From: Microthyrium microscopicum
Lineage: Eukaryota > Ascomycota > Dothideomycetes > Microthyriales > Microthyriaceae
Reading direction: 5' to 3'
Length of the DNA: 64,000 nt
Assembly: GCA_010405405.1 (NCBI GenBank)
Contig: MU004244.1
Span: 1,025,510 to 1,089,509, forward strand
Made by a program: the position numbers and the translations under genes. Below, one piece after another: positions 3,109-30,903 of the stretch. Under the pieces are notes generated by a model, which did no database searches, was not told where the DNA came from, and worked only from the letters and a program-made list of their open reading frames with translations. Position 1 is the stretch's first letter; the number at the start of each line of letters is the position of its first letter.

Positions 3109-5033
3109 ATGGAACGCCCTTCATCATCCGGTCAAACTGAGGATTATGAGCTATCCATTCCCATTGAAGCTAGAACCGGATTACGACAAGGTTTAACATC
3201 ATATGGCGACGCCCACTTCTCGCTGTTTCTCCGAAAAGTGTTAATCAAGGCTCTCGGATACTCGGAAGATGCTCTCTCCAGACCAATTATTGGAATTATC
3301 AACACCTACTCAAGTTTCAATCCATGCCATGCCAACGTTCCACAACTCATTGAAGCCGCAAAGCGTGGAGTACATCTCAATGGGGGAATTGCAATAGATT
3401 TCCCTACCATTAGTGTGCATGAGTCATTTGCACATCCGACGAGCATGTTTTTGAGGAATTTGATGAGTATGGATACAGAGGAAATGATTAAAGCTCAGCC
3501 GGTTGACGCTTGTATCATGATTGGCGGTATATATCTTTATCACAACCTTTTTTCCCATATAGTACTAACATTGAAAAGGTTGTGATAAAACAGTGCCAGC
3601 TCAGTTGATGGGTGCTCTATCTGCAGACAAGCCTGTGCTTCCACTGATAACTGGTCCAATGATGCCAGGCAGTCATCGAGGAAAGCGAATAGGGGCATGC
3701 ACAGATTGCCGCAACAACTGGGCTGCTTTCAGAGCGGGCGATATTGATATCGAAGAGATATCAGAACTCAATGAAGAACTCGCGCCAACTGTACGCTTCA
3801 CCACACGCATCTTTCTTGTGTGCGCTTTTTTAACCTATTCTTCAGGCAGGGACTTGTGGTGTCATGGGAACTGCATCTACTATGGCATGCATAACAGCAG
3901 CTTTGGGTTTAATGCCCTTAAGAGGCGCTTCTGCACCGGCTGTGTCATCTTCTCGACTTCGCATTGCTGAAGAGACGGGAGCTCGGGCTGTTCAGATGCT
4001 TCAATCCGATTCACCGAAAACCTTACAGTCAATCCTTAGCAAAGAGTCATTTTTAAATGCAATTACCGTGCTTCAAGCTATTGGAGGTTCGACAAATGTC
4101 ATTGTCCATTTAATGGCGATCATAAATCGACACCCTTTACTTCAAGGAGAGATCACTTTGGATACATTCGATGAAATCGGCCGCCAAACACCTCTATTGG
4201 TAGACTTGAAACCAAGCGGCGACAACTACATGACTGATTTTCATAATGCTGGAGGCATGTTGGCACTTCTCCAAAACTTGCGCCCTCTGCTTCATCTGTC
4301 TGCTAAAACAATCACTGGAGAAACATTAGGAGACCTTTTGGATGCGACTCCCCATCGCTCATTTGAATCAACGATAATACGACCTCTAACCAACCCTCTA
4401 TATGTTGCCTCGTCTCTAGTGGTGCTACGCGGTAATCTAGCACCAAATGGCTGTGTAGCGAAGGCATCTGCGTCCAAAGATCGCACTCTTCTAAACCATC
4501 GAGGCCAGGCAGTGGTATTCGAAAACTCTACAGATATGGCGCTGAGACTCGATAGTCCAGATCTACCAGTCACACGAGACTCCGTACTAATACTGAAGGG
4601 AATTGGACCTATTGGTAACCCGGGGATGCCAGAATCCGGGCTAATACCGATTCCTCGCAAACTAGCATCACAAGGTGTGACCGACATGTTGCGGATATCT
4701 GATGGTCGAATGTCGGGAACGGCTGGTGGAACCATAGTACTACATGTATCTCCCGAGGCTGCTATCCCGGACAGTCCGTTTGGAATCGTCATGGATGGCG
4801 ACTGGATTCGACTTGATGTCGATAAGCGAGAGCTTGTCCTGGAAGTCGAGGAAGCGGAAATCAAAAGACGAATACAAAGGAGGGTCCAGCAAATCGAGGG
4901 TTCTACTGGTCCCAATGCTCCAACTTGGGTTGCTCGAAAGAGTCGACGCGGCTATCGAGGACTTTATGAGAGAACGGTAAATCAGGCTCACGAGGGAGCT
5001 GATTTTGACTTTTTGACTGCACATGGCCCATGA
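3109..5033 (+). CDS. IlvD/EDD-family dehydratase (dihydroxy-acid or sugar-acid dehydratase type)
   Basis: Three exons (3109-3526, 3579-3790, 3846-5033) encode 605 aa, the usual length for the family. Intron 1 has a perfect TACTAAC branch site. The three Cys expected to hold the Fe-S cluster are visible: NPCH (C73), GGCDKT (C141, created across intron 1) and GTCGVMGTA (C214). The C-terminal SDGRMSGTAGG motif carries the serine proposed as general base in IlvD enzymes. The family dehydrates 2,3-dihydroxy acids, either in valine/isoleucine synthesis or in sugar-acid (arabinonate, xylonate, gluconate) breakdown. The C-terminus (GYRGLYERTVNQAHEGADFDFL) resembles the pentonate-type dehydratases more than Ilv3. 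There is no obvious mitochondrial presequence, so a cytosolic sugar-acid role is my inference; the substrate cannot be settled from sequence. Confidence 0.88.
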
Positions 5034-7608: not shown

Positions 7609-9399
7609 TTAGCCATAGACAAGCACCGAGCCGCTCTCCTTTCGTCGATGTGACAGACCATCATCTGGAAGAGGTGATATAGAACCAACTCTTTCAAGTT
7701 CGTTCTCGTCTCCTTTCTCTTCAAGGCCTTCGAAGAGCATAAACTTCTCGCCTTTTGCCTCTGTTCCCCATGGAACAATATACCCACCTTGCACTTCGCA
7801 ATCATCCAGCTCGCTCTTCTCATCTCCCTTCCGTGGCCCACCCTCTACTTTGCAGCGGGGACCAAGTACGCAGTTGGTGAGCGTGACGTTGTCGCCAATC
7901 ATAGCGTTGTCCATGATCAAGCATTTAGTCAACCGTACGCCTTCACCAATGGTGCATCCGACTCCAATGACAGATTCCTTGATACCACACTTCTCGCCGA
8001 TTGTGACGTTTTCGGCTAGTAGACAGGTATCTGCCTCAACTCGAGTGATTCTGGGAACGCTGTCGGGATGTGCGATTTTGAGAGGATGGGCGAGTGGTGA
8101 TGGAGTAGCACCTTTTTCAAGTGTGCTTGTGGCCGGTAGCCGGGCAATCCGGAGAGATGTTGCCAGTAATGAGGCTTTAGTGTCAACGCGTTTGATGACT
8201 GGTGCGGAAGGAAGGGCCTCATGGATATATGCCATGATGGGAGGTATTGAAAGGGACTTTTGGGTTTTGGAGACGTTAGGTACTTTGCTGTAAGAGACTG
8301 TGCTGCTATACTCAGCAACATCGAGATCGTCTTCTTCTTCGCTTGGCCCGGGGGAGCCTTCATCTGACCCGCTGTTCTTCTCAGAGCCTTGGTTATCAGT
8401 AAAACCTAGAATATCTCTAAATCCAAGCTTCTCTGCTAAACCGGGCTGCCAGGTTGCTTTTGCCCACCATCCTAGGACATCCTCGCTGATGCTCTCGAAC
8501 CGTTCATCCTGCATCAACTCAAGTGACCAGAAAGGAAAGAGATATACATGCGAATCCCGTACTGAGGACCGCACGTTTATTCGTCCAAATTCGCGGAGTA
8601 GGGAATGTCGAACAGCATACAGCTTCTTCTCTTCCAACACATCATTTAACGAGTCTTTTGGCATCGCAGACACTAATTTCGACACCTTTGATCTTATGGA
8701 GTTGTTGGGTAGTGGGACAACCGGTTTTGTCGGGGGTACAGTAATAATGAAGTCAGTTTCTTCGCCTTTGAGCGCGGCCTCGCCTTTAGTATCATACCAC
8801 ATGCCCATAGCACCTCGCCGAGCTATGCTTTCTCCCCCACATTCCATAGGGACTGGTAGGTTTGTATCACGATCTAAACCACCGGTTGCGCCTCCTAGTC
8901 CAGCTTGAAGCACCATCCATTCCTGTAAAAGTGCTGTGCCGTCTAATTCTGAGACTAAATCGCATGGCAATACGATAAAATCTTCCTTGATCGCATCTTT
9001 TACTTCTTTTTGTCGGAACACGTCGCCAGTTCCACTCGTATTTGTGAGTTCTGTTGGGGCTAAGATGGTCGGCCGAGGTGATGGGAGGCTTGTGAGGTGT
9101 GGGTTTTGCTGAAGGGCCGCCTCCAACGCAGGCTTTGATTCAGGCGGTGTGATTATGAATATGTCTATGATAATGTTAGCATAAGATCAACAGAAATGGT
9201 GAAAGGCGCATGGACGCATACCTGATATCCCCATCCGGTAGCACCAGTCGAGCGGATACCATACCATAGGCCGGTTGGCTATGGGTACGATTGCTTTTGG
9301 AAATTCGACAGGATCGGATGTGAAGGTATCCAGTGAGGCCCCCGGTCCACACAGAATAAAGGCCTGAAAGCCCGGTGAGGGTAGAGTTGCGTGTGGCAT
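7609..9399 (-). CDS. Translation initiation factor eIF2B subunit gamma
   Basis: Two exons, 9222-9399 and 7609-9164 (intron 9165-9221), encode 577 aa. The N-terminal nucleotidyltransferase-like domain has FQAFILCGPGASLDTF, EFPKAIVPIANRP, MVWYPLDWCYRMGI and, across the intron, IFIITPPESK. A Ser/Glu-rich acidic linker (about residues 300-330) leads to C-terminal left-handed beta-helix hexapeptide repeats (CLLAENVTIGEKCGIKESVI and following). This arrangement, without the W2/HEAT domain of the epsilon subunit, fits the gamma subunit (yeast Gcd1). It works in the decameric eIF2B complex, the GDP-GTP exchange factor for eIF2 and target of the integrated stress response. It is convergent with the folate gene, whose stop is 86 bp away. 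Confidence 0.9.
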
Positions 9400-12335: not shown

Positions 12336-15300
12336 TTACAACGAGCCTTCCGCAGCTCTCGCCAGCACCTCAAATACACCTTGGCGGAGTTTATAACGTA
12401 CTAAGCCAGCGAAGATACCCAAGTCCTCGATCGCGGTTTTCAAATACTGCACTGTACCCTGGCGACTATCTGTCTCCCAGCCAGAGCTCATGAGCTTCTC
12501 CTTCTCCTTTGTACACGCCAATACCATCCAGATCAGTACATCTCCAATGCAGCGCGCGATCACCTGGCTGAGCTCTGAAAAGTCCTGTGCTGACTGGCGA
12601 ATGCGAGTAACGTCGCCTCGGAAATCGACTGGAAGGAGCTTGAGGTTGCCAATGGTTTCGATACACTCGACGTAATAGCGACCAAGAAGCAGCTCTTTCG
12701 CTCGGGCGAGCTGCAGAAGGACTTCAGCTGTCTTTCGTGTGTTTGGCTTGATTTTGTTGTATTCGTGCTGGCTGCTGGCCTGACTATAGAGGCTGAGCAT
12801 GTTGCGTGCGAGAACCACAGGATCGTCCACCGCTGTCAAGCTAAGGGTCGAGTTCTCTGAGAATGCCGGTCCAGACTCAACCTTGCGTGCCTTCAATGGC
12901 TCGAGACGCATTGCACTCTGTCCAAGCTCGACGGTAAGAGCTTCAGATAAGGTGCGGTTGACTATTGTCAAGACATTTTCGTACTCGCCAGCGAGATGGT
13001 AGAGAAGAACTGAGTCAGTGGTGCGTCCACCTTCATCTGCTGTTTGAGCGGCTTGTATGGTGAGTTTTTGGACAAAGTTATCCATGTCACGTAGTGAGCC
13101 GGACACCGAGCCTCGCTTGATTAAATCGGTACGAAGTTGAATTGCGCCTGGAATGCGCTGCCCATCATTGCGAACATCACCTAGGAGTTGTGCAAATTCA
13201 CGAGTTTCCAAGACAAGCTCTCGGAGCGCCTCGAGACATAGCTGCCCTTGTTGACGTCCAGCTTCCCCGGATAGGTCGGCATTAAGAGCCAACAAAATGA
13301 GATAATCAGCAGCTGCGTCCGGTTTAGCAGCTCGAAACTCGGACGTGTAATAGCCAACGATGAGAGCAAATTGCAATTGAGGCTCTTGTCTGGTGGTGAA
13401 CGATACTACTTTTGTTAGCGTTGGCAATAAACCAAAGGAATTGATACTTACGCAAGTTAGTCTGAGAGAAATCTGATACTCGTAACAGACCGTAGTATGC
13501 AAGGGCGATAGAAAAATGAACGGCTGCTATATAGTTGTAGTCGTAGAGCCATTTGATCGCGCTCTCATACATTCCTGCAAGAATCTGGAGGTAAAAGTAG
13601 ATACCATAGCTGCCGCTGCTTTCAGAAGTGGGACCAAAGTGTCGTTGTCCGATATCTGTAACAATGCTACGAAGATCTTTCAAGCTGAAAGCATCTCCTG
13701 CAACCTCATCTGCCTTGTTGACCTCGCGAGCAAGAACAAATTGTAGCCAAATCCAATCTTCTTCATCGGATGGAATTCGATCAAAGTTCTTGCGCGACAT
13801 TTCGCAACGACCAATCACTTTGTAACAGGCAATTTTGTAGGGATCAGTTTGAGATGCATCGTGAGCTCGAGATTTGCCTACATACTCGCGCGCGATCGCT
13901 GTGCGAAGATCCTGTGGAAGTCTGCGGTCTGGATCTGCCGCATATGCTTCCATGTATCTGGAAAAGTTGCGGTCTAGACTTCGAATTGCTCGCTGATTGT
14001 CTGCAACATATCTTGCAGCTTCTTCGACTAGGCCACAACGAAGAGCATAATAGATCAGTGCCCAGCAGTAGTCTGTTCCAGAAGGAGTGGTTATTTTCTG
14101 TATAGCTTGCATTTCAACATCCTGGTTCTCTGGCCCCACAAGATCTTTGCGCTGAGCCAAAACTCGAATGTACGCTCGAACCTTGTTGACTGGTTGGGGA
14201 ACACCGCCCAAATTGGCCACCTTGGGATCTTTCGCAATGACGGTTTCGACCTTGCGCCAGAAGATGCCTTCGAGACATTTTTGTGCACCTCGCGTGATCC
14301 GTTTGCGCATGTTCTCTGCACGTTGAGCATTATCATTGTAGTTGAGATATTCGTTGACGAAAGAGCGTTCCCAGCTTTTGACATTTGGATCAGAACGAGC
14401 CAGTGTAGTACTGCTTTCCTCAGCAACTTCAATCAGTGCTTTGTACGCATTAGAGATCTGATCGGCACTCTGGTCCCCAACGGCAAGTTCGATTTCAGCC
14501 AATTGGTGCGCAATTGGAAATACCAGGTCCATATTTCTAGCTTCATTGAATTCTTGAATCTTTTTGGCATAGAGTTCTTGACGTTCGCGATTTGTGCGAT
14601 CTTCCAGGCGCATACGTGGCTGGGATTTCGAATCACTTTCAGCTGCTTCACCAGGGGCACCTAGTACAGATGTTCGCAAATTGGCATTGCCAATGATCGA
14701 CTTTTGCATACCAGAAACTCGCATACCAGAAGCGGACGCTCGGAACCCTCGAGAGGAGCGGCCAAATGCCCCAGTGTTGGCTTTCGTTTGTGTAGCATCG
14801 TCATCCGCTGCATTTCCTGTAGGGGTTTTGAGACCGAAATGCTCGTAGACCTTTCTCCGTTGAGCATTCCAATTCATCTGGACTGTCTCTTCAAGGAAGT
14901 TGTCAAAGTCGCGTTTCGATTGTTCCAGTCCCTCTTGAATCATTTCCATCGTAGATTGTGTGCGCAAGTTCGAGACGAAGGTGTCAAGATCTGGATCTGG
15001 AGCAGCCTGGCCTGCAGCACCTGTTGTAGCTCCTGCTTGAGCTGCGAAATTGTTGAGATCACGGAGAGCATTGACAGTAGATACACCAGATGATGCAAGC
15101 ATGTAATGAGCTCTAGCATCTCTGTCACCAGCTCGCGCTTGTGCTGCACTGGGACCTCCAGTCCCTAGGTTTCTTGCTTTTCGAGCAATGTCCGCAAGAC
15201 CAAGCTGTAGCGTAGGAATATCACCCAAGCCTCCATTGTCCAGATGATTTCTTTTCTTTCCTCGCTCTAGCATTTGATCAAAGTAAGCAGAGCTCCCTGG

Positions 15301-15750
15301 AGCTGCGGCGGCGGCTTCTGCCTGCGCTGGTTGTGCATTTGACTGATTTGCTTGTGCCGGACCCTGCGAAGCAAAGAGACTTCCGCCAAGCGCAGGTGCT
15401 TGCTGAGGTTGAGTAGACATGTTGAATAGAGAAGGGGCCGCATTCGTATTGGTATTTGGAGTAGAACCTAGGAAACCAGGCTTGTTTGTGGTCGACGCGA
15501 AAAGAGACGGGGCCGCTGCGGGTTTTGGCGTGCCTAACCCGCCAAAAAGAGACGTACTAGGAGCAGAGGAAGCAGGGTTATTGTTGAAAAGAGACGATGC
15601 AGGAGCGGCGGCGGCAGTGGTGTTGAGTTGGGGGAAAAGGCTCGATCGCGATGTTGAGGTATCTGCTCCTAGCGGAAGTGTAGAGGAGCGTTTTAATGGA
15701 GCGCCAAAAGCACCGCTGCCAGCTGCAGCACCGGTATTGCTGCCGAACAT
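12336..15750 (-). CDS. NIC96: Nucleoporin Nic96/Nup93 family
   Basis: Exons 13452-15750 and 12336-13408 (43-nt intron, GTAAGT donor, GCTAACA branch) encode 1123 aa, longer than yeast Nic96 (839 aa). The first ~150 residues are low-complexity Ala/Ser/Pro with scattered FG and LF motifs (MFGSNTG, SLFGGLG, SLFASQG), a short FG-like tail. A coiled-coil-forming part follows, then the long alpha-helical Nic96 domain, with GVPQPVNKVRAYIRVLAQRK, TDYCWALIYYALRCGLVEEA, LQILAGMYESAIKWLYDYN and, across the intron, ALIVGYYTSEFRAAKPDAAA. Nic96 is a scaffold of the inner ring of the nuclear pore and binds the Nsp1 complex through its N-terminal coiled coil. Its start faces the ATP8-like gene 466 bp away. 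Confidence 0.92.
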
Positions 15751-16216
15751 GACGAGACCAAAATTACAGACGCTGAATTAAGAGCCGCCGGAATGCAAAG
15801 GTTGTGGTTGCTGGGTAAATGTTCTACACATTGGAAAGCGCGCTCTAATGTTTTGCTGGACAAGGATGTTATCTTGGCAGGGGCCCAAGCTCTAGTTTCC
15901 ACCCCATCCCATGTCTCATCCGTTCCGCTCCGCTGCAAATGCTTCCTTCCGAGATTCTCCATCCGAGACTCAACATCAAGAGCTTTGTAACTTGCGTGCC
16001 AACTCAAGAACCTCAATTACAGCCTGTCTGACCTCTGACCGCTTGTATACTGGCAATTGACCTCAATGTGAGTCTGCCTACCCTCTGATACCACAAATAA
16101 CTCACCTTACACAGCAAACGCTCGACAGTCACCCGCCGCAACTTGCCATCCGCAACAGTCAGTTCCAACAACAGCTATACCTCCGGTCCCCATTCCTCTG
16201 ACAAAGCCCCAGAATC
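15751..16216. promoter_or_regulatory. Divergent promoter between NIC96 and the ATP8-like gene
   Basis: 466 bp between two divergent ATGs. The half near the ATP8-like start is CA/TC-rich (about 16075-16210), as expected for a fungal leader. No named motif was recognised. Shared control of a pore scaffold gene and an ATP synthase gene is possible but only suggested by position. Confidence 0.35.
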
Positions 16217-16596
16217 ATGTCTATGTCGGCCCGCGTCCTCCGCCCGCTCATGCGGACCTCAGTTCCTGCCATGTCGGTGCGAGCACTGAGCACCAAAACC
16301 GCCGCAGCACGCTTCCAGTCTAAAAGCAAACCGCAAACCGCTGTACCAGAGAGCCGGATGCCATCCAAGGTACTACATCTCCTGACTACCGACGGCTGCA
16401 GCTCCAAGCTAATTGCCTGTTTCTTAACTAGACTGTCTTGATGGCCGCCATGCCTCAGCTCGTGCCATTCTACTTCGTCAACGAGGTTGTTGGAGCTTTC
16501 ATCGTTATTCCAACTCTCATCTATCTGATGTCGAAATACTGGCTGCCACAGATTGTACGCACCAAGTTGGCTCGTCTGTTTATCTCCAAGCTTTAA
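16217..16596 (+). CDS. ATP8: Nuclear-encoded ATP synthase F0 subunit 8 with mitochondrial presequence
   Basis: Exons 16217-16369 and 16432-16596 (62-nt GT-AG intron) encode 105 aa. Exon 1 is a typical presequence of 51 residues: rich in Arg, Ser, Ala and Lys, free of acidic residues until Glu45, with repeated R-x-L steps (ARVLRPLMRTSVPAMSVRAL). Exon 2 gives six linker residues and then a 48-residue core, exactly the length of yeast Atp8. It starts MPQLVPFYFVNEV, has one membrane segment (AFIVIPTLIYLM), then SKYWLPQIVRTKLARLFISKL, whose final FISKL matches fungal Atp8. Atp8 is a stator-associated F0 subunit in the inner membrane and is normally encoded in ascomycete mtDNA. The spliced product, the presequence and the open frame indicate a functional transferred gene. 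Standard codons are used. The identity of the 48-residue core is firm; the absence of a mitochondrial copy is unverified. Confidence 0.88.
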
Positions 16597-17850: not shown

Positions 17851-18754
17851 TCATAAACAGCTCTCGTGTAGTGCAACCCAAGTGATTCGATCTTGGCCTT
17901 TGCGTTTGTCAGAGGCAATTCTCTGCTTGCGTCGTGAAAATGGTTTCGAGCCTCCAAGGCCAAAGTACTGTCCACACTTTGCACAATCCGCCTTCGCCAG
18001 GTCGTTGTCTCCATATGCCACTAGCATTTCCAGTGTAGCAAATATATCCTGTGGTGACGGACGTCTCCACATGGTTGTTGAAATGGCCTCACTTTCGTAG
18101 TTTCCACCCACCGATGTGACATCATATACGACACCATCTTTCGTGCCTCGTTTGCGAATCTCAAATCTGTACGCTGTACCTGCGCGGTCGACTTCGACAT
18201 TGATTCTAGTTTTGTCTTCGTCGTCCCAAGCACAGGTCTTGAACTTTGGCGCATATTCGGCTAAGGCGGCGGTTTCGTCTTCCTCAGTATTGCGGATTTT
18301 TTCCTGCTCAAAGTCCTTCTGCTTTGCCGCACTCAGGGCTTCTTCACGACTGACCCAGCCCCAGAGACCAATCTCGTACTGTCTAACCAAATCAATATGT
18401 TTGTTCTTCTCTTGCCCGAATTGCTGGATCATGCGCCAGGTCGCAGCATCTTCCCAGCTTTTCTTGAGGTCGTCGATCGTGGCTATAGATTGCTTGGCTG
18501 TTCGCATGTAGGATCGTTGTATATCCTGGGGATTGGAGTAGGAGCGACGGGTGAGCGTGTTAACAATGTTTCCTGGAATCGCACGCGCGCGATCAATCTG
18601 TGATATTATGAGCGTTGTGTGCTATGCGCAGAACGTTCTGTGAGGAGCATACCCGGCGCTGTATTCTCTCTAGCTCTGCTAATGCTGCGACAAACTCTTC
18701 TTCTGCCCAGTCTTCGGTCTGTAGTATTGGCGCTGAATGCGCGGGTTGCGCCAT
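17851..18754 (-). CDS. Mediator complex subunit 27 (Med27-like)
   Basis: Exons 18653-18754 and 17851-18597 (55-nt intron) encode 282 aa. The N-terminal half is helical and charged (EEEFVAALAELERIQRRIDR across the intron, then SIATIDDLKKSWEDAATWRM). The C-terminal end has a zinc-ligand pattern, CAKCGQYF ... WVALHESC, which matches the end of animal Med27 (CxxCG ... LEAFHxTC). Med27 is a Mediator tail/upper-tail subunit linking activators to RNA polymerase II. The match rests mainly on this C-terminal block and overall helical layout, so the call is likely rather than certain. Confidence 0.7.
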
Positions 18755-20765: not shown

Positions 20766-22545
20766 TCAAGCTGAAGCCTTGGTTCCACTTTTGGTGCCTG
20801 ACCATTGCACAGCTTTCATCCCACCACCATAGTATTTGCTCATGTTTTTATACGACATGGCAAGATTTGGATCCCATAGTTTGCCTTCTACTTGCAATTT
20901 ACTTCCCTCGTATTTGGGCGCATTAGTAAGACCGAGTTGCTCCAATAGGCCTGAAGCCTCAAGCACAAGACTGTCCGTCCCGTATTGCCCAATCAGTTGC
21001 ATTCCAATGCTACTTTTCGAGTCCCTTTGCTTCAGAGGAATGCTGATTGCTGGCAGACCTGCCAAGCTGGCTGGGACTGTAAAGACATCTGTGGTGTAAC
21101 CTTCAACTGGCGTCTGTGCCTCAACTGCAGCGAGCTCTGGTGCCGAACAAGGAGCAGTCGGGCAAAGTAAAAGGTCGACTCCGTCTTCTGTGCCAACAGA
21201 TCCTTCTTCTAGAACATTTCTTGTCTGAAAGACACGATTGAAATCTCGCTGGACCAGTCTGCGCACTCTTTGTGACTGCATAAAGTAGTTGTCCATCGCC
21301 TCAGAGCTTAGCGTGTATGTTCCTAGAAGGATGCGCCTTTTTACTTCCTCGCCAAAGCTTATATCTCGCGTCCTGGAGAACAGAGTTCCAGCGTTCATGT
21401 CGCTTCCCTCAGGACGAGTCCCATATCGGATGCCATCATACCTCGCTAGATTTGATGAAGCTTCCGCAGGTGCCAGGACGTAGTATGTTGAGAGCGCGTA
21501 CTTAGTGCTTGGAATCGATACTGCGGAAATTGAGATGTTATGATCCTGAAGAGTTTCTAGCAGTTCCACCCACGCATGACGAACGTCTTGATCCAACTCT
21601 TCAATGTTATATTCGCCCGGGATTCCAATTCTCAAAGGTCGTCCTAGCATGCGAAGGTTTGGAGTCACCTTTAAAATGTTCTTTCGAGTGCTTGGTGTTA
21701 CGCTTGTTGGATCTTTATGGTCGAACTTGGATATTGCGCTGAACGTTTGCTGTATCTTGTGGGTGGAGTTCGCAAGTATTCCAACAGTATCCAGAGAATT
21801 AGCATATGCAACGACTCCGTTCCTTGAAATCAGTCCATATGAAGGTTTGAAACCAAAAGTGCCTGTGAATGCTGCAGGTAGTCTAATGGATCCACCAGTG
21901 TCCGTCCCCAGTGCTCTTATAAACAGTCAGTATTTTGCCATAAAGCTGAGAAACTATCACTTACGCCCAGCTTTGATCAGTTGTAACGGCCATTGCACTA
22001 CCACCAGAGCTGCCACCTGCAGAGTACAATTTCCCGTCTCCACCCTGATTGACAACTGGGCCATGGGCAGAGTTGATGGAGTGAGACCCCATACCGAATT
22101 CGTCCATATTCGTCTTTCCTTGAATCAAAGCTCCAGCTTCACGAAGCAGCCGGACGACAGTACTGTCTAGGGGACTGCGAAAGCCCGCCAAGGTAGAGGA
22201 AGCACATGTTGTATCATAACCCGCGGTACAAATATTGTCCTTCACGGCAATTTTGCGACCTTCAAGAGGCCCTCTTACAGCTTTGAAAAGAGTTAGGGTC
22301 TAACATCATGTATTCATGCTAAGCATACCTTGGGTACTGATGCCATCGAGCTCGGCTGTGTGTTGGGTGATGAACGCGTTGCTAGCTGCGCCATGACTAT
22401 ATGCACGCGTGTACCGGCCATGTCGAGATACTACATTTCTCAAGCCAAATCGGTGCATTGAATAGCCACGCCTACTAGATCGCTCAGATGAGTCTGCAGA
22501 ATAGTCTTGATGCTGTCTGCTCATCCAGGATGGATATAAATACAT
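20766..22545 (-). CDS. Mitochondrial glutamyl-tRNA(Gln) amidotransferase subunit A
   Basis: Exons 22329-22545, 21965-22280 and 20766-21915 give about 560 aa. The amidase-signature triad is complete: Lys in KIAVKDN (about residue 86), the cis-Ser in [12 protein letters not shown], and the nucleophile Ser in [13 protein letters not shown], which is rebuilt across intron 2. Intron 1 joins STQ to [10 protein letters not shown]. GatA (yeast Her2) supplies the amidase for turning Glu-tRNA(Gln) into Gln-tRNA(Gln) in mitochondria, with GatB and GatF/C. The start is uncertain: 22545 and 22524 are both in-frame ATGs, and the Arg/Ser-rich segment after them could be the import signal, but the region before [11 protein letters not shown] matches the family poorly. 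An additional 5' exon is possible. Confidence 0.87.
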
Positions 22546-29390: not shown

Positions 29391-30903
29391 ATGGAATCCT
29401 ACGAAGAGCCGGCCATCAGCACTTCTTCCCGGCGCTATCCCTCTTCTGCCCACCTTAGACGTCGTAGACACTCATCATGTCATTCTTTAGCATGGCATGG
29501 AGAATCAGACGATCTCCAGTTACTGGTATGGTCTATTCATTCCTTTGAAAAGCTCGGCCTAATCCTGCCTTTTCCAGATTGATAGATTCCTAGTCGAACT
29601 AAGCCGACGATTGGATTTTCTCGAATCATACGGAGCCTTAAATCTCGACACTAGTATAGACGGCGCTTGGTCCACCCTACACGCTGTTCGCGATGCGTGC
29701 TCTCGAGTCTCCGATGGTTTCCTTGATGTTGGTCGACGAAAGGCAAGAATACTGGTGGAAACCCTAGAGGGTAGCTATAATGAGGCGCTGGCGCAGAAAG
29801 AGACTCTGGAACAAAAGGTTCACGAAGGCGTTGCTCTAATGGAGTCACTATTGGCAGATTTTGAGGCCCGCGCATACGATCTCAAAGAAAACGCCATGGG
29901 ATTGAGTCCGTACGACCTACTAGACGGAGGGCGGCGCAAAGTAGACGAGGGTCTCGAACGAGCAAAGGAGGTTGTGGATGCTGGAATTGACATGGCGTGG
30001 GGCGCTGCTGAGACAATTGAGATTGCCGTCGAACGAGCACTTGATAAAGCACGGCAACAAGGCCTTCTCAAAGTTCACGAGCTTCCTATTCCATGGCGTA
30101 CAAACGAGCACATCATCCGCGGATATCGATTTCACGATACTTTGACTGGATGTCTGCGCTCCACGGTCAACCTTTCCAACGAGCTTTTCAACATCTGGTC
30201 GCACGCCATTGGATTACTTATCGTTCTCTCCATTGCATTCTACTTTTATCCTGCATCAGATCATTTCACCATTGCCACCAAAACAGATGTCTTTATTGCT
30301 GGCATTTTCTTCTTTGCGGCATGTAAATGTTTGATATGCAGCACGATATGGCATACATTCAATGCAATCTCCGAAAAGCATCTTATAGAACGATTCGCTT
30401 GCGTCGATTATTCGGGCATTTCGTTTCTAATTGCAGCCTCTATAATCACGACCGAGTATACGGCTTTTTATTGCGAACCGTTTTGGCGGTGGTCGTGGGT
30501 TCTCACCACAGCTGGCTTCGGACTCACTGGCATATATCTGACCTGGCATCCAACGTTTAATCGACACGACATGGCCTGGCTTCGTCTTACCTTTTACTGT
30601 TCTCTTGCCGCGACTGGCTTTCTACCAGCAGTCCAAGTTATGTATGTCCATGGACTGCATTGGGCCGCAGTATTCTATGCTCCCATTCTGAAAAGTCTGG
30701 CAGTCTACTTTTTTGGGGCAATACTGTACACTCTCAAAATCCCGGAGCGATGGTGTCCAGGCATGTTTGATTATGTAGGGGGAAGCCACAACCTTTGGCA
30801 CGTCGCAGTGCTGGGAGGCATATTGTTCCACTACATGGCGATGCAAGAGTTTTTCGCCAAGGCATTTTTGCGAGCTGTTTCTCAGCAATGTTCTGTTTAT
30901 TGA
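29391..30903 (+). CDS. PAQR-family (AdipoR/hemolysin III) membrane receptor, Izh3-like
   Basis: Exons 29391-29525 and 29578-30903 encode 486 aa. The long soluble N-terminus (about 240 residues), with amphipathic helices (LLADFEARAYDLKENAMGL), is the mark of the Izh3 branch rather than the short Izh1/2/4 types. The membrane part has the PAQR blocks: IPWRTNEHIIRGYRF, LFNIWSHAIGLLIVL, the Ser/His site ICSTIWHTFNAISE, DYSGISFLIA, and the terminal His pair in GGSHNLWHVAVLGGI. These His and Asp residues bind zinc in PAQR proteins, which act as receptors with ceramidase-like chemistry. In yeast, Izh proteins affect zinc and sterol balance. About seven membrane segments are visible. Confidence 0.88.

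Follow-up and report, generated by a model that had tools for sequence, protein, structure and literature searches.

A nuclear ATP8 gene with a putative mitochondrial leader beside NIC96, and the recurrence of its intron site in ATP8 genes like those of other Dothideomycetes

Our analysis of a 64-kb stretch of fungal DNA (hereafter the window), which occupies positions 1025510-1089509 of contig MU004244.1, suggests that the locus at positions 16217-16596 of the plus strand is very probably a working nuclear gene for Atp8, and its product is predicted to be the single-span F0 subunit 8 (A6L) of the mitochondrial ATP synthase. This function is read from the conservation of the core, the splice frame and the leader. 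Comparison with homologous sequences also makes it probable that ATP8 was transferred from mtDNA to the nucleus a single time in Dothideomycetes, with the leader and the intron then in place. The features of the locus are as follows (window coordinates).

16217..16369, plus strand: exon 1, 153 nt, with ATG start and a 51-residue basic leader, a putative mitochondrial presequence
16370..16431, plus strand: intron, 62 nt, GT-AG, phase 0, GTACTA...TTAACTAG
16432..16596, plus strand: exon 2, 165 nt, with six codons (TVLMAA), the complete Atp8 core and TAA
16450..16593, plus strand: 48-residue Atp8 core, MPQLVPFYF...FISKL, PF05933 positions 1-48
16068..16114, plus strand: candidate 5'-UTR intron upstream of the ATP8 start, GTGAGT...CAG, 47 nt, recognized by sequence pattern

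The joined exons encode a precursor of 105 residues, in which residues 58-105 are the Atp8 core. To define the intron, we examined GT-AG pairs that enclose 40-120 nt and whose donor is located 100 nt or further inside the gene. Six of these pairs leave the ATP8 frame open, and the 62-nt intron was preferred to the others because homologues show the same junction. A CTAAT sequence, a branch-like site, is located about 20 nt upstream of the acceptor. When we re-derived the coordinates, the limits of the core, the 62-nt intron and the six-codon spacing to the ancestral Met that had been given in an earlier note on this DNA, all of them were correct, and the proposal in that note that ATP8 is nuclear here, carries a presequence-like leader and is interrupted by a spliceosomal intron was supported.

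The precursor matched PF05933 over positions 1-48 of 48 (E = 7e-20, 71.4 bits; curated cut-off 26.1), in agreement with the earlier reading of exon 2 as containing a complete 48-residue core, and the profile against 16447-16593 alone gave E = 8.7e-21. The yeast Atp8 of the solved ATP synthase (6b2z chain A) also matches the core (E = 9.7e-12). Because all 48 positions of the family and the yeast structure chain match, a chance match is excluded. The 20 columns that are invariant among the window protein and 15 homologues are all within the core or the two residues before it. The third-position GC content of the core is 0.60, versus 0.41 for the adjoining NIC96 gene, and its sole Trp codon is TGG; the core is thus unlike a recent mtDNA insert. 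The membrane segment had been described as less hydrophobic than mtDNA-encoded Atp8, and this held as a trend but no more. The Kyte-Doolittle 19-residue maximum is 1.91 for the window protein and 2.41 for yeast; it is 1.76-2.10 for five presumed mtDNA-encoded Atp8 sequences and averages 1.75 (1.35-2.12) for 56 annotated models. The Wimley-White octanol minimum is -10.0 for the window protein and -17.4 for yeast; the five presumed mtDNA-encoded sequences range from -11.65 to -12.59, and the annotated models average -9.4.

The locus sits in nuclear DNA among nuclear genes. The GC content of the window is 44-53% over 64 kb, and nuclear-type neighbours, including NIC96 and dihydroxy-acid dehydratase, are found on it as listed here.

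3834-5033: dihydroxy-acid dehydratase, Pfam match
7609-9186: eIF2B-epsilon-like left-handed helix, Pfam match
12336..15750, minus strand: NIC96/NUP93 nucleoporin gene, two coding stretches (PF04097, E = 1.7e-96 and 6.5e-84)
17851-18621: Mediator subunit 27, weak, Pfam match below cut-off
20766-21926: amidase, Pfam match
29563-30903: haemolysin-III-related membrane protein, Pfam match

In the whole assembly (36.9 Mb, 20 contigs), the ATP8 locus was the single match to the PF05933 profile, and a search of the assembly for a second, mitochondrial-style atp8 with a presumed mtDNA-type core returned only the same locus. Searches of the assembly for cox1, atp6 and a nad-type family gave no match, and mtDNA therefore seems to be absent from the assembly. 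We also observed a nuclear ATP9 with a leader-like N-terminus at C2:3922036-3922221 on the minus strand, which was judged by eye to be the mitochondrial c subunit.

The 51-residue leader encoded by exon 1 has a net charge of +9. It has a high helical moment, although this is suggestive at most, being reached by 270 of 5000 shuffles, and it contains a processing-like R-A-L-S-T motif. Other ATP8 proteins have leaders with which it can be aligned. For 21 of the 26 such leaders compared, which were hand-chosen to span orders and restricted to ATP8, at most 25 of 500 shuffles reached the observed score; more than 25 did so in the remaining five (Vermiconidia, Phyllosticta, Aplosporella, Coniosporium and Aaosphaeria). 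Part of this likeness may reflect a common presequence style. The donor of exon 1, which was expected to be identifiable within the same genome, did not emerge; the search of that genome with the 51-residue leader, at E values up to 10, recovered exon 1 alone (a single candidate in the first pass), and the donor may be too diverged for such a search.

NIC96 and ATP8 are arranged head-to-head, and 466 bases separate their presumed start codons. To place the window fungus, we used a quick tree of NIC96, with SH-aLRT support only, from the window and 50 of the best 120 of 177 relatives, in which Eremomyces and Acrodontium have long branches. In this tree, the window grouped innermost with metagenome sequences (four rows, 99; seven rows, 100; nine rows, 96). 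Trichodelitschia, Tothia, Venturia and Verruconis joined this group next (13 rows, 99), and Rhizodiscina, Aulographum and Eremomyces joined further out (16 rows, 97); the rows of Pleosporales formed a group apart (100). According to NCBI taxonomy, Trichodelitschia belongs to Phaeotrichales (incertae sedis), Tothia to Venturiales and Rhizodiscina to Aulographales. The window fungus is thus most likely a Dothideomycete near Venturiales and Phaeotrichales, with no named species close to it among the matches listed, and the tree does not support the setting in Pleosporales to which the earlier note had pointed.

Among the matches listed (the best 120 of 606 for ATP8 and the best 120 of 177 for NIC96, each from a search that scored a limited set of candidates), 26 named species have both proteins, and the two genes are linked in seven of them. 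The locus tags are adjacent in Venturia and Verruconis, and the contigs carrying the two genes are equally long in Tothia, Trichodelitschia, Rhizodiscina, Aulographum and Eremomyces (also in Verruconis), a sign of linkage that was read by eye and does not prove adjacency. The contig sizes are ambiguous, owing to multi-member or strain clusters, for Paraphaeosphaeria, Setomelanomma, Pyrenophora teres f. maculata and Boeremia. All seven linked species belong to the clade of the window, and none of the other 19 named species showed the linkage, although nine of these 19 are absent from the NIC96 tree and are presumed from their names to lie outside the clade. The position of ATP8 beside NIC96 therefore seems to be old within the clade, and ATP8 seems to lie elsewhere in Pleosporales. 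In Venturia inaequalis (BLS_001321, beside NIC96 tag BLS_001320) and Verruconis gallopava (PV09_08612, beside PV09_08613), the gene resembles that of the window in leader, core and neighbour, with protein-level identities of 51% and 53%, respectively, over 97% of the window protein.

We also compared the position of the intron among homologues. The sites were deduced from protein read-through in unspliced metagenome ORFs, which nearly always come from relatives of named species. The residue seven positions before the core Met is Q in 43 of 52 raw metagenome ORFs versus five of 63 annotated models, of which 47 carry M there (the Fisher test for this contrast ignores kinship among the sequences). 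The Q would be an in-frame read-through of the CAG acceptor, as expected from an unspliced intron. The 63 annotated models were hand-picked by name and include P0162, which reads through, and the raw set includes the NCBI proteins P0029 and P0237; left out of the count were P0034-P0038 (presumed mtDNA), P0159 and P0161 (repeated cores), P0168, P0203 and P0241, as well as P0019, which is too short. In an alignment of 32 proteins with leaders of at least 30 residues (10 with a flush insert of at least 16 residues, 10 flush without insert and 12 others), 15 carry at least 16 extra residues before the last six codons, and in 10 of these 15 the insert is flush with the end of exon 1. At the intron site of the window, each of the 10 flush inserts, from nine raw ORFs and the annotated model P0162, has V (GTN) as its first and Q (CAG) as its last residue. 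The leaders best matching them are those of Curvularia, Didymosphaeria (twice), Didymella, Dothidotthia and Neocucurbitaria (P0162, P0166, P0167, P0169, P0183 and P0216), Tothia (P0173), Coniosporium (P0232), Extremus (P0033) and a window relative from a metagenome (P0018, which matches P0001). The other five proteins with long inserts (P0016, P0029, P0202, P0212 and P0244) could not be aligned flush and are silent on the donor side. The read-through pattern thus indicates that the same intron site is found again in ATP8 genes resembling those of Pleosporales, Venturiales, Coniosporium and Extremus, and we infer that the named species themselves carry the intron.

The recurring intron site and the likeness of the leaders together favour one old transfer. 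Such a transfer would require either that the two copies persisted side by side for a long time or that the gene moved horizontally, because Pseudocercospora retains a transcribed atp8 in its mtDNA (PMC7999263). By NCBI taxonomy, Extremus (Extremaceae) and Pseudocercospora are both in Mycosphaerellales, and the Extremus ATP8 has a leader and is presumably nuclear because it lies on a 285-kb contig. It was suggested in PMC5626475 that atp8 was lost after Dothideomycetidae and Pleosporomycetidae had split; if common descent explains the shared intron site, the nuclear ATP8 would predate that split and would have coexisted with the mtDNA gene. We give an even chance to a history in which one transfer, with leader and intron, preceded that split and was followed by coexistence, after which the mitochondrial copy was kept in Mycosphaerellaceae and the nuclear one in Extremaceae, Venturiales, Botryosphaeriales and Pleosporales. 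Alternatively, the same observations would fit a nuclear ATP8 that moved horizontally between fungi, for which an Extremus-like ATP8 from Xylariaceae may be a lead. This protein, from Xylariaceae sp. FL0804 (P0241, contig of 5.55 Mb), is of nuclear type with a leader and is 53% identical to that of Extremus antarcticus across leader and core. Xylariaceae sp. FL0804 belongs to Sordariomycetes, and its ATP8 may reflect horizontal transfer, contamination or a deeper origin. Several transfers within Dothideomycetes, the likeness of leader and intron being convergent or spread by later recombination, seem unlikely to us. They would agree with the mtDNA copy retained in Mycosphaerellaceae, with the lack of NIC96 linkage outside the clade of the window (0 of 19 named species among the matches listed) and with the weak leader similarity in five of 26 comparisons; however, genes like those of Pleosporales, Tothia, Coniosporium, Extremus and the window have an identical phase-0 site, six codons upstream of the ancestral Met, and repeated captures are hard to reconcile with such identity across these groups. 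The capture of a targeting exon, as proposed in the earlier note, fits the recurring site, but not as an event specific to this genome, since it would be old and common to several orders.

With a single transfer as the preferred reading, the gene would derive from one movement out of mtDNA into the nucleus that preceded the divergence of most Dothideomycete orders, leader and intron being gained then, and the mtDNA copy would subsequently have been lost in the lineage of the window fungus. The mRNA would be spliced and the precursor synthesised in the cytosol, the leader would carry it through TOM/TIM23, a matrix peptidase would cleave the leader near RAL/ST, and the subunit would be inserted beside Atp6. 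The N-terminus of Atp8 faces the intermembrane side, so that an imported subunit would need either re-export out of the matrix or a change of orientation on insertion. It is improbable that the nuclear gene is a spare copy, with mtDNA atp8 persisting and both being used or the nuclear one being redundant. The empty searches of the assembly for mtDNA genes leave room for a mitochondrial atp8, and Mycosphaerellaceae keep theirs, but the core and the splice frame are intact and conserved across deep divergence, and the lineages with nuclear ATP8 are reported without mtDNA atp8 (Stemphylium and other Pleosporales; PMC5626475). Likewise, atp6 and atp9 are listed as the ATP synthase genes of the mtDNA of Macrophomina (Botryosphaeriales), although atp8 is named in a figure legend of that paper as one of the genes in the tree. 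A recent functionless mtDNA insertion (numt), which has nothing in its favour beyond the mitochondrial origin of the Atp8 family, has a negligible chance of being correct and was rejected on the nuclear-type codon make-up, the leader, the intron and the shared NIC96 neighbour.

Nuclear ATP8 as a phenomenon is already in print, and a single locus is ordinary for its class. For Stemphylium lycopersici, atp8 and atp9 were published in 2017 as nuclear genes whose products have predicted targeting peptides, and the same paper lists Pleosporales with mtDNA lacking atp8 and atp9 (PMC5626475); Shiraia-like fungi are reported to have the same pattern (PMC11881002). Like the window gene, S. lycopersici TW65_04673 has an N-terminally extended Atp8 core in a nuclear scaffold, with mitochondrial import predicted by TargetP and mtDNA without atp8 and atp9. 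Stemphylium belongs to Pleosporales, whereas the window fungus is outside this order in the NIC96 tree, and section 13 of PMC5626475 does not discuss the intron, the neighbours or the origin of the leader. In yeast, experimental nuclear (allotopic) ATP8 is reported to have succeeded, with some defects (PMC10809612); it shares with the window gene cytosolic synthesis and import, but it is engineered and the window gene natural and old. A review counts fewer than six transfers of atp8 to the nucleus and regards ATP8 as rarely relocated. These statements on earlier work also draw on passages of PMC4366305, PMC10442929, PMC7225605 and PMC8451660.

Leader-bearing ATP8 proteins, many of them named ATP synthase protein 8, were found among the best 120 of 606 matches in Pleosporales, Mytilinidiales, Botryosphaeriales, Venturiales and Trypetheliales and in Coniosporium and Extremus. 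To this the present analysis adds that the fungus is placed outside Pleosporales, that its ATP8 is linked to NIC96 and that the intron site recurs. Neither the shared intron site nor the contrast between Extremaceae and Mycosphaerellaceae was met with in the retrieved passages of the open-licence PubMed Central literature, and the same holds for the ATP8-NIC96 linkage, with queries that did not include NIC96 by name. A class of fungi whose families, even within a single order, seem to retain different copies of atp8 is a natural test of the retention of genes in mtDNA.

Some minor observations concern individual homologues. In a metagenome-assembled genome of Pyrenula ochraceoflavens (P0025), a 334-kb contig carries an ATP8 whose leader (MSSARLLQPLAR...) is Dothideomycete-like; Pyrenula belongs to Eurotiomycetes according to NCBI, and mixing in this assembly is possible. 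Proteins P0159 and P0161 contain three and two repeated Atp8 cores, respectively, in one frame with identical linkers, and P0161 begins with a stretch that by eye resembles the C-terminus of Cox1, so that these sequences are perhaps mtDNA repeats or products of assembly.
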